NCBI RefSeq assembly: GCF_025264625.1 | Contig: NZ_CP093313.1 | Span: forward strand, 5,084,001 to 5,148,000 | Reading direction: 5' to 3' | From: Occallatibacter riparius | GTDB taxonomy: Bacteria > Acidobacteriota > Terriglobia > Terriglobales > Acidobacteriaceae | Length of the DNA stretch: 64,000 bases | Shown here: positions 16,216 through 20,784 of the stretch, piece by piece | How the letters are laid out: the number at the start of each line of letters is the position of its first letter | Position numbering within the stretch: position 1 is the first letter of the stretch | Notes under the pieces: generated by a model | The model's database searches: none | Told to the model about the DNA's origin: nothing | The model's input: only the letters and a program-made list of their open reading frames with translations | Position numbers and translations under genes: made by a program

Positions 16216-17571
16216 TCAAACGGTCGGTGCCCAGCCTTTCTCGTAGGTGCGGCCCCAGTGCTTCATTGCTTCGGCATCATTCTTGATTTTTGCGTCTGCG
16301 GTGTCGAGCGAGAGGACGCGGTTCGTTTCCCAGGCCACGTTCGAGAGCTGCAGCATTGTTACCGCGACGTTGCCGATCTCGATGGGGGCGTGAAGCTTCT
16401 CGCCGGACTTGACCGCAGCGATGAAGTTGGCGAAGTGGCGGTCGGTCATGGAGTCGCGGCCGGTGAGGTCGGCTGATGAGGTCTGTTCCTTCTGTGCTCT
16501 CACCTCGCCGGTCTTCTTGCCTTTCCAGTCGTAGGTCTCGTAGCCGTCGCGGTCGACGATCACGGAGCCTTCGGTACCGAGGATCACGGAACCGCGGTCG
16601 CGATTGTAGGTGCGCATTCCCTGGCAGCTATTGCCTTCCCAGGTGATCATCTTGCCGCCGGTCGCGCCGACCGCAGGGTAGTTGAAGTTGGTGATCAGGG
16701 TGTCGTAGAACTGCCAGTCGTCCTTGTATTGATAGCGGCCGCCCTGTGCGCTCACGGTCTCGGGGTAATCCACGCCGAGTGCCCAGCGGCAGACATCGAC
16801 TTCATGGGTGCCGTTGTTGAGCGTTTCGCCTGTGCCCCAGACGCGGAACCAGTGCCAGTTGTATGGCTGCACGTTGTCCTTGTATTCCTGGCGCGGCGCG
16901 GGCCCCTGCCAGAGGTCCCAGTCGAGCTGTGCCGGTACAGGCGCCGGCTTGCCCACACCAATGGACTTGCGGGTGTTCGCGTACCAGGCCTTGGCGAGGT
17001 AGGGCGTGCCGATTGCGCCGGAGTGAATCTTGTCGATGATCTCGATGGTGTGCGGCGAGGAGCGCTGCTGCGTGCCCATCTGCACCTTCTTGCCGTATTT
17101 GCGCACGGCCTGAAGCAGCATCGCGCCTTCAGCGGGATTGTGGCTGCAGGGCTTTTCGAGATACACATGCTTGCCCGCCTTGAGGCCGAGGATCGCCAGA
17201 GGCGTGTGCCAGTGATCGGGCGTTGCGATGGTGATGGCGTCGACGTCTTTCTTCGCGAGAATGTTGCGGAAGTCGCGCTCTGCGGCTGCGGGTTCGCCCA
17301 TCTCCTGCTGTGTGGCGTCGGCGAACTTTTTCAGTGTCTCCGAATCCACGTCGCACACGTAGGTGATGCGCGCGGAGCTTTTATTGGCTTTGAGCGACGA
17401 GAGATGTGCGTAGGCGCGGCTGCGCACGCCAATGACGGCGAAGTTGAGCCGATCGTTGGCGCCCATGATCTGTCCGTAGGATTTTGCAGTTGAGCTGATA
17501 GCAAGTCCGGCAGTGCCGATTGCGAGCGTGTCGAGGAATTCACGCCGAGTAACCAAGGTGTTGCCTCCCAT
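16216..17571 (-). CDS. Tat-exported Gfo/Idh/MocA-family oxidoreductase
   Basis: A 451-residue NAD(P)-dependent oxidoreductase with a twin-arginine signal (VTRREFLDTLAIGTAGLA). The Rossmann start is LNFAVIGVRSRAYAHLSSL, where one Gly of the usual GxGxxG is replaced. The catalytic region contains EKPCSHNPAEG, matching the family EKP motif. The C-terminal alpha/beta domain has a Trp-rich region (DWDLWQGPAP, YNWHWFRVWGTGE), typical of secreted acidobacterial and planctomycete members with tightly bound cofactor. With the downstream isomerase-like gene it probably forms a carbohydrate-processing pair. Confidence 0.88.
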   Translation of the reverse strand: MGGNTLVTRREFLDTLAIGTAGLAISSTAKSYGQIMGANDRLNFAVIGVRSRAYAHLSSLKANKSSARITYVCDVDSETLKKFADATQQEMGEPAAAERDFRNILAKKDVDAITIATPDHWHTPLAILGLKAGKHVYLEKPCSHNPAEGAMLLQAVRKYGKKVQMGTQQRSSPHTIEIIDKIHSGAIGTPYLAKAWYANTRKSIGVGKPAPVPAQLDWDLWQGPAPRQEYKDNVQPYNWHWFRVWGTGETLNNGTHEVDVCRWALGVDYPETVSAQGGRYQYKDDWQFYDTLITNFNYPAVGATGGKMITWEGNSCQGMRTYNRDRGSVILGTEGSVIVDRDGYETYDWKGKKTGEVRAQKEQTSSADLTGRDSMTDRHFANFIAAVKSGEKLHAPIEIGNVAVTMLQLSNVAWETNRVLSLDTADAKIKNDAEAMKHWGRTYEKGWAPTV

Positions 17572-17670
17572 GGGAATCTAGAGTTGAAGCGAAGAAAAGC
17601 GCGGTTGAAGAGCGGTTGCGCAGCGCATTTTCCGACCAGAGAATCTTACTCTGTCGAGGCGCGGGAGGGT

Positions 17671-17712
17671 GGCGATCAGGAGATCGCCACGACAGCCGGT
17701 CAGGAGACCGGC
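17671..17712. repeat. Tandem pair of AGGA-loop hairpins
   Basis: Two perfect 7-bp hairpins follow one another: GGCGATC-AGGA-GATCGCC (17671-17688) and GCCGGTC-AGGA-GACCGGC (17695-17712), separated by ACGACA. The stems differ in sequence but both loops are AGGA and both stems close with TC/GA. They sit between the start of the Gfo/Idh/MocA gene and the secA terminator. See findings. Confidence 0.75.
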
Positions 17713-17728
17713 GCTACAAATTCATCGA

Positions 17729-17771
17729 CACAAAACAGAAAGAGCATCCGGGACTGCGATCCGGATGCTCT
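17729..17771 (-). terminator. Intrinsic terminator of secA
   Basis: An 11-bp perfect stem (17741-17751 with 17761-17771) and a 9-base loop lie 23 bases past the secA stop. In the direction of secA transcription the stem is followed by a T-rich tract (TTTCTGTTTTG). Confidence 0.8.
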
Positions 17772-17793
17772 CTTGTTTTAAGTGCTATTGTGC

Positions 17794-20784
<2,991 letters not shown>

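Follow-up and report, generated by a model that had tools for sequence, protein, structure and literature searches.

A head-to-tail GTAG-type double hairpin beside secA in Occallatibacter riparius is very probably one copy of a dispersed REP-type element of Acidobacteriota

What are two tandem perfect hairpins with identical AGGA loops doing between two genes of Occallatibacter riparius? A sequence-only reading of the 64-kb stretch that contains them (here called the window; contig NZ_CP093313.1) had proposed a sponge for proteins of the CsrA/RsmA type and had named a REP-like dispersed element as an alternative. The results presented here argue strongly for the alternative. Together the hairpins very probably make up one copy of a non-autonomous REP-type element dispersed in Acidobacteriota. 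This element is 50 nt in length, is composed of two GTAG-type hairpins arranged head to tail about 24 nt apart, and is most likely moved in trans by a RAYT, which was not found in this genome.

Structure and setting of the 50-nt element

The hairpins are flanked by ORFs at positions 16216 to 17571 and 17794 to 20784, both on the minus strand, for which we agree, by eye, with the names Gfo/Idh/MocA and SecA given by the sequence-only reading. Both AGGA-loop hairpins were found where that reading had put them, and its placement relative to the flanking ORFs and to a terminator-like hairpin was correct (Table 1). It had described two 7-bp stems six bases apart; the stem at 17695 to 17712 does have 7 bp, whereas the stem at 17669 to 17690 has 9 bp and the spacer comprises four bases (GACA). 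Apart from these two, the plus strand of the window contains no perfect hairpin with an AGGA loop and a stem of 7 bp or longer, and no such hairpin with a TCCT loop was present.

Both hairpins together with a conserved tail form one unit on the minus strand. The tail, GCTACA on the plus strand, is common to other copies and extends the feature 6 nt past the end that had first been assigned. In minus-strand orientation the element reads TGTAGC GCCGGTC TCCT GACCGGC TGTC GTGGCGATC TCCT GATCGCCAC, and each half comprises a perfect hairpin with the loop TCCN (NGGA on the plus strand) preceded by a foot, which is GTAG in the first half and GTCG in the second. Folding of a 66-nt stretch gave −31.8 kcal/mol for the minus strand (z = −5.8) and −31.1 kcal/mol for the plus strand (z = −5.2), and the fold energy was equalled by none of 200 shuffles. 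In the accessible text of PMC6006769, the defining mark of a GTAG-type REP is GTAG or GTGG, located 0 to 2 nt on the 5' side of a hairpin whose stem is fully paired over at least 7 bp and whose loop measures 2 to 5 nt. The first hairpin of the window copy, with GTAG, a 1-nt gap, a 7-bp stem, and a 4-nt loop, falls within this definition.

Table 1. Coordinates of the element, its parts and the adjacent terminator-like hairpin (window positions)
Feature	Position	Strand	Remark
Whole element, GTAG-tagged head-to-tail double hairpin	17669..17718	-	R1 covariance model 75 bits, E 1.2e-13; the window copy is 1 of the 9 sequences used to build R1
First foot, TGTAGC (GTAG tag separated from the stem by 1 nt)	17713..17718	-	GTAG exact in 6/9 own-genome copies
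First hairpin GCCGGTC-TCCT-GACCGGC, 7 bp	17695..17712	-	loop is AGGA on plus
Second foot, TGTC (GTCG, a GTAG variant, when the following G is included)	17691..17694	-	9 copies: GTCG 5, GTAG 3, ATGG 1
Second hairpin GTGGCGATC-TCCT-GATCGCCAC, 9 bp	17669..17690	-	loop is AGGA on plus
Terminator-like hairpin separating the element from the 996-aa ORF (secA)	17741..17771	listed on plus only	other side T-rich too, by eye

The element is repeated, and its pairing is kept while its sequence varies

Pattern searches of the genome and of relatives returned further copies, in keeping with the REP-like alternative. The pattern GRTCAGGAGAYC matched the genome 10 times (two of these being the window hairpins) versus 1 match for the reversed control; six of the 10 matches lie at family members, and four (L084, L085, L086, and L091) are not members by context. 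A second pattern, of 16 nt, did not outperform its control when up to 3 mismatches were allowed (243 versus 356), and only its few-mismatch hits were useful; at these, the 50-nt layout recurred elsewhere in the genome. Nine own-genome copies aligned without gaps, in part by construction, since they had been cut to 50 nt by a pattern, and these were used to build a covariance model, R1. With 150 of 1,970 candidates scored, so that the counts are lower bounds, R1 detected in the 6.79-Mb genome at least 10 full copies at E below 1e-8 (the 9 training copies and 1 found independently) and at least 14 matches at E ≤ 0.01, weaker and partial ones included. By a crude ORF call, seven of the 10 copies lie outside ORFs and three lie over ORF 3' ends; they stand beside different ORFs, and their orientation to these is not constant. 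The genome also holds a different REP form, a single double-foot hairpin (TGTAGCGGGGATC-TCCT-GATCCCCGCTACA) at G000:C1:4979299-4979339 (L087, L156).

A general hairpin scan of 400 kb of this genome (20 stretches of 20 kb) showed no excess: NGGA hairpins of at least 6 bp numbered 5 versus 7 in the reversed sequence, and thus the repeat does not stand out in its own genome without its foot and partner. The sample contains one full copy by coordinates (C1:3852430), which the scan missed because its stems are mismatched.

From the two differing stems, the sequence-only reading had concluded that pairing is kept while sequence is not, suggesting selection on structure. In the nine own-genome copies, changes on both sides occurred in 5 of 16 pairs, a count that 64 of 500 shuffles also reached; no shuffle attained the observed covariation score or number of changed cells. 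Among 42 matches from relatives (40 distinct), in an alignment made with the model itself but nearly ungapped, 10 of 16 pairs had changed on both sides, 99.4% of cells were paired, and covariation reached 0.382, compared to 0.136 for shuffled alignments and at most 0.039 for slid controls. For the second hairpin alone, both-side changes affected 5 of 9 pairs in the own-genome copies and 7 of 9 in relatives. Compensatory changes are present in both sets, and the structural conclusion was therefore right.

In the genus, R1 matches at E ≤ 0.01 were detected in 31 of 59 genomes, two of which had at least 101 matches each; at most 101 candidates were scored per genome, so these counts are lower bounds. 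The exact first-hairpin pattern had copies in 28 of the 59 genomes, with as many as 152 (G019) and 151 (G042); the reversed pattern had none in any of the 59. Spread within the genus is patchy, with 28 of 59 genomes lacking an R1 match at E ≤ 0.01 and two carrying about 150 pattern copies. Across 396 genomes of the phylum, with 15 candidates scored per genome and the result again a lower bound, matches at E ≤ 0.001 occurred in at least 26 genomes and at least 11 of 210 genera. In most of the inspected examples from other families, GTAGCGCCGG or GTGCGCCGG, a loop containing TC, and CCGGCTG are retained ahead of the second hairpin. In the text covered by a literature search on REPs, no account of this element was recognised, which weighs little, as figures and most subscription papers fell outside the search.

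Copies differ between relatives at the same sites. At the secA locus itself, R1 (E ≤ 0.1) matched nothing but the window copy when run on the window plus 80 secA loci from several phyla (764 kb in total); these 80 loci do not represent a true empty site, because the sequence after secA differs in the 22 that were inspected. Relatives were also compared over a 19.5-kb stretch of G042 (L240) that contains eight copies. G019 has the element at or very near the places of the copies at L240:10644 and L240:14985. At the former, about 91 nt are absent from G022 and G018, and G013 has other sequence there and no clean empty site; at the latter, the element is absent from G013. Among the 21 compared regions, R1 matches were confined to G042 and G019. 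The flanks of the copies yielded no readable target duplication or fixed target site, and no exact ends.

The hairpins occur in twos. Across 177 kb of G042 and G019 sequence, pairs about 24 nt apart accounted for 62 tagged hairpins, and none was the middle of three. The same sequence held 16 lone tagged hairpins, of which about half, by eye, have unrelated stems; the remaining ones have a decayed partner or none. The usual REP organisation is single, head to head, or tail to tail, head to tail being rare; this organisation, which is not a defining trait, was not observed for the 50-mer, which forms head-to-tail pairs. Whole 50-nt units also occur in inverted, REPIN-like pairs 26 to 69 nt apart (L236:5716-5843, L240:11612-11737, and L227:111-279). 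A larger palindrome around the 50-mer was rejected as a general feature (mean score of 13.6 versus 12.2 for shuffled flanks, with one clear case in 48). In several copies from G042, G019, and G011, the shared sequence extends about 25 bases past the second hairpin (like TYGTCCAGGAATCATTACCAAATCA), and another group has a different tail ending in GGCGGTTGAAAATGG (tail examples L240:4598, L232:1414, L293:5212, and L240:18933). These tail groups may represent subfamilies or insertion into other repeats.

Association with a RAYT-type transposase

Genes matching Y1_Tnp are present in 58 of the 59 genus genomes, and bare presence is therefore uninformative. A particular class, A3 (a RAYT; HuH/tyrosine transposase of about 230 aa), was detected at E ≤ 1e-20 in 8 of the 59 genomes at 11 loci (12 match rows, two of which are pieces of one locus). 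Inverted 50-mers flank the A3-class gene on both sides at nine of these loci, forming units of 756 to 901 bp, and on one side at two: G019:C185 begins at a contig start, and at G052:C119 the gene is broken by a two-N joint, past which the sequence is not that of the RAYT gene. Beside other Y1_Tnp genes, the 50-mer was found at 0 of 30 loci (the best-scoring locus from each of 30 genomes, 1.8 to 3.4 kb). Dispersed copies and RAYT flanking thus bear out the REP-like alternative.

The three A3 proteins that were scanned all scored 84 to 86 bits with NF047646, the NCBI model for REP-associated tyrosine transposases (cut-off of 80). A3 proteins also match Pfam Y1_Tnp and remained far below the cut-off of 55 for the IS200/IS605 transposase model NF033573 (21.3 to 29.5 bits). 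The best PDB match of an A3-class protein was 4er8, TnpAREP, and an alignment of five proteins displayed the features of the RAYT/TnpAREP family: NHVH (HuH), WQ, and YVxxNP. By motif table, the nearest RAYT subclass is 2.7 or 2.4. The C-terminal residues of the five aligned A3 proteins come from the 3' copy of the element. The reading frame runs through the 3' element in L225, L226, L227, L229, and L231, ending like AGxDARTTAGLETGAT, with 24 nt equal to 8 codons; in the window's genome, copies L145, L146, and L152 overlap 3' parts of ORFs by the crude ORF call. The repeat may therefore lengthen proteins.

Five of the 11 RAYT loci share flanks between genomes (G017 with G052; G019:C275 with G023 and G038), and therefore at least part of the RAYT loci look inherited in place. 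For the other loci, the 0 to 3 kb compared on each side yielded no long match, and multiple RAYT loci are present in both G019 and G036. Excluding RAYT-flanking copies, the median copy number was 25 in RAYT-positive and 0 in RAYT-negative genomes (Mann-Whitney p 0.0002, kinship ignored). By hand count, the first stem is GCCGGCC in all 23 listed copies of G036, 3 of which flank its RAYT genes, and mixed in G038 (15 GGTC, 7 GGCG, and 1 GGCC); the first stem of dispersed copies follows, in part, that of the RAYT lineage.

Copies also occur in 23 of the 51 RAYT-negative genomes, with the largest number in G042. In that genome (about 150 copies; assembly 84% complete), no A3-class match was obtained among 48 of 191 candidates scored, and its one Y1_Tnp gene is not flanked by the element. 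Copies without an A3-class gene could reflect gene loss, incomplete assemblies, unscored candidates, or another RAYT. A plasmid search for the A3-class RAYT gave matches in 2 of 72,556 records, with only 31 and 36% identity. The window's own genome has two Y1_Tnp genes (C1:4802200 and C1:1722618). Neither was an A3-class match at E ≤ 1e-20, and no 50-mer was found in the 20-kb stretches holding them; a cognate RAYT at either gene was therefore rejected. Because no A3-class gene was found in this genome, its copies are probably relics, the window copy included, and a RAYT would presumably have been present in the past.

How REP sequences spread is described as still open in the accessible text of PMC8266576, which also reports that TnpAREP recognises a GTAG foot plus hairpin in single strands. 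By analogy with TnpAREP of E. coli, the A3-class RAYT would most likely recognise foot and hairpin in single-stranded DNA and move or copy the 50-mer in trans; in some relatives its gene (about 230 aa) lies between two inverted copies, with further copies scattered over the genome. A same-strand hairpin pair with near-fixed spacing and a candidate cognate RAYT in the genus would provide a simple substrate for a two-end, single-strand model of REP spread.

Other explanations and comparison with known systems

The proposed CsrA/RsmA sponge or target, in which AGGA loops would sequester a CsrA-type protein, agrees with the two tandem GGA-loop hairpins and with the plus-strand loops of the nine own-genome copies (NGGA in 9 of 9 first and 8 of 9 second loops). 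No CsrA gene was found in any of the 59 genus genomes, the window's included, with a control positive in 3 of 14 well-known genomes, and absence of csrA is what the sequence-only reading had itself named as refuting the idea. Moreover, GGA lies only on the strand opposite both neighbouring ORFs: the GTAG foot shares the minus strand with both ORFs, so that UCCU and not AGGA would appear in read-through RNA. No sigma-70-like promoter was found in 17500 to 17850, and up to about 150 dispersed copies per genome with a transposase association count further against a sponge, leaving it next to no probability. Tandem GGA-loop hairpins thus need not imply CsrA. A single sRNA gene is ruled out by the same copy numbers. 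Rfam gave no family at gathering score in 17000 to 18400; RF02844 (25.7 of 49 bits) and RF02558 (15.9 of 300) were far below their thresholds, and neither lies over the hairpins. Equally implausible is an intrinsic terminator or intergenic spacer without a link to mobility. GC-rich hairpins between genes would fit, but the terminator scan placed one next to the element and none at it, the sequence, foot, and spacing are common to unrelated loci, and dispersal and RAYT flanking contradict it. A role at the RNA level after insertion, with hairpins in the 3' ends or 5' leaders of mRNAs affecting stability or attenuation and RNA selection keeping the pairing, is improbable but deserves more weight. 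High stability on either strand and a position between the terminator-like hairpin and the next ORF start speak for it, and such roles are reported for REPs in the accessible text of PMC6006769. Against it, the upstream transcript should end ahead of the 50-mer, the 10 own-genome copies, by the crude ORF call, have different ORFs as neighbours and no constant orientation to them, and copies are absent at the same sites in relatives. Any effect of the window element on neighbouring genes is probably incidental.

A further rival is a terminal inverted repeat of the TIRtron type (Di Nocera et al. 2013, PMC3733652), in which the 50-mer would be a transposon end with deleted derivatives scattered. 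The RAYT gene between two inverted 50-mers, in units of under 1 kb, has this architecture, and the accessible text of PMC3733652 describes TIRYTs that include a sharp Acidobacteria group and mentions "double palindromic" TIRs. Since TIR-flanked Acidobacteria tyrosine transposases are described there, part of the 50-mer family may already be drawn in that paper. The 50-mer may even be identical with a Koribacter or Terriglobus TIR of its Figures 8 and 9. Several observations favor a REP nonetheless. The repeat consists of two GTAG-type hairpins, so that its first half falls within the REP definition; of the 37 model matches in the stretches from G042 and G019, 29 lack an inverted neighbour within 100 nt (hand count); and RAYT loci are few, with at least 5 of 11 sharing flanks between genomes. 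The motif GGGGWSAS, shared by some TIRs of the main type, is absent, the 50-nt window element having neither GGGG nor CCCC. We therefore regard a TIRtron end as possible but on balance unlikely, and retain the REP-type element as the preferred reading.

A more specific proposal, to which we give a slightly lower and still tentative standing, would make the 50-mer a minimal single-strand transposon: its two same-strand foot-plus-hairpin modules would be left and right ends like those of IS200/IS605 with nothing between, and one RAYT dimer would bind, excise, and reinsert the unit. If true, this would account for the head-to-tail pair, the near-constant spacing, and pairs without threes, as well as for the spread of the 50-mer in contrast to the RAYT gene, which hardly spreads. 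A further consequence would be a phylum-wide REP type of Acidobacteriota with its own RAYT lineage. IS608 has left and right end hairpins in this layout. The 50-mer resembles such ends in having two foot-plus-hairpin modules on the same strand; unlike them, its modules are only 24 nt apart with nothing between, and the transposase is of the RAYT and not the IS200 family.

Among systems with doubled stem-loops, the 50-mer shares with TIRYT/TIRtrons and with the double inverted repeats of P. putida ORF 607 and P. fluorescens ORF 4255 (PMC3733652, accessible text) a tyrosine transposase gene between long inverted repeats of two adjacent stem-loops, with hundreds of copies. In the two Pseudomonas cases a degenerate GTAG-1 half is joined to an unrelated stem-loop, whereas both halves of the 50-mer are of the GTAG type. 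The double-foot REPs of TnpAREP subclass 2.4, as outlined in PMC6006769, likewise have REP hairpins and insertions that keep reading frames open; unlike these, the hairpins of the window element each have a one-sided foot.

The closest resemblance is to GTAG REPs and REPtrons such as E. coli REP/TnpAREP, which the accessible text of PMC3733652 divides into families GTAG-1 to GTAG-24 with stems of 6 to 13 bp. As in those systems, a GTAG foot adjoins a short stem with a short loop, copies are dispersed in high number with compensatory stem variants, and a RAYT gene is flanked by repeats. The copies here are dispersed (10 full copies in the window's genome and about 150 each in G019 and G042) and mostly intergenic, judged by the own-genome copies; a cognate RAYT flanked by the repeat was found in relatives and not in the window's genome. 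The 50-mer thereby suggests Acidobacteriota as an addition to the hosts of GTAG REPs. What is unusual compared to the GTAG REPs of PMC3733652, so far as that text describes them, is the head-to-tail double form, a unit that is itself a pair with near-fixed spacing and no threes seen.
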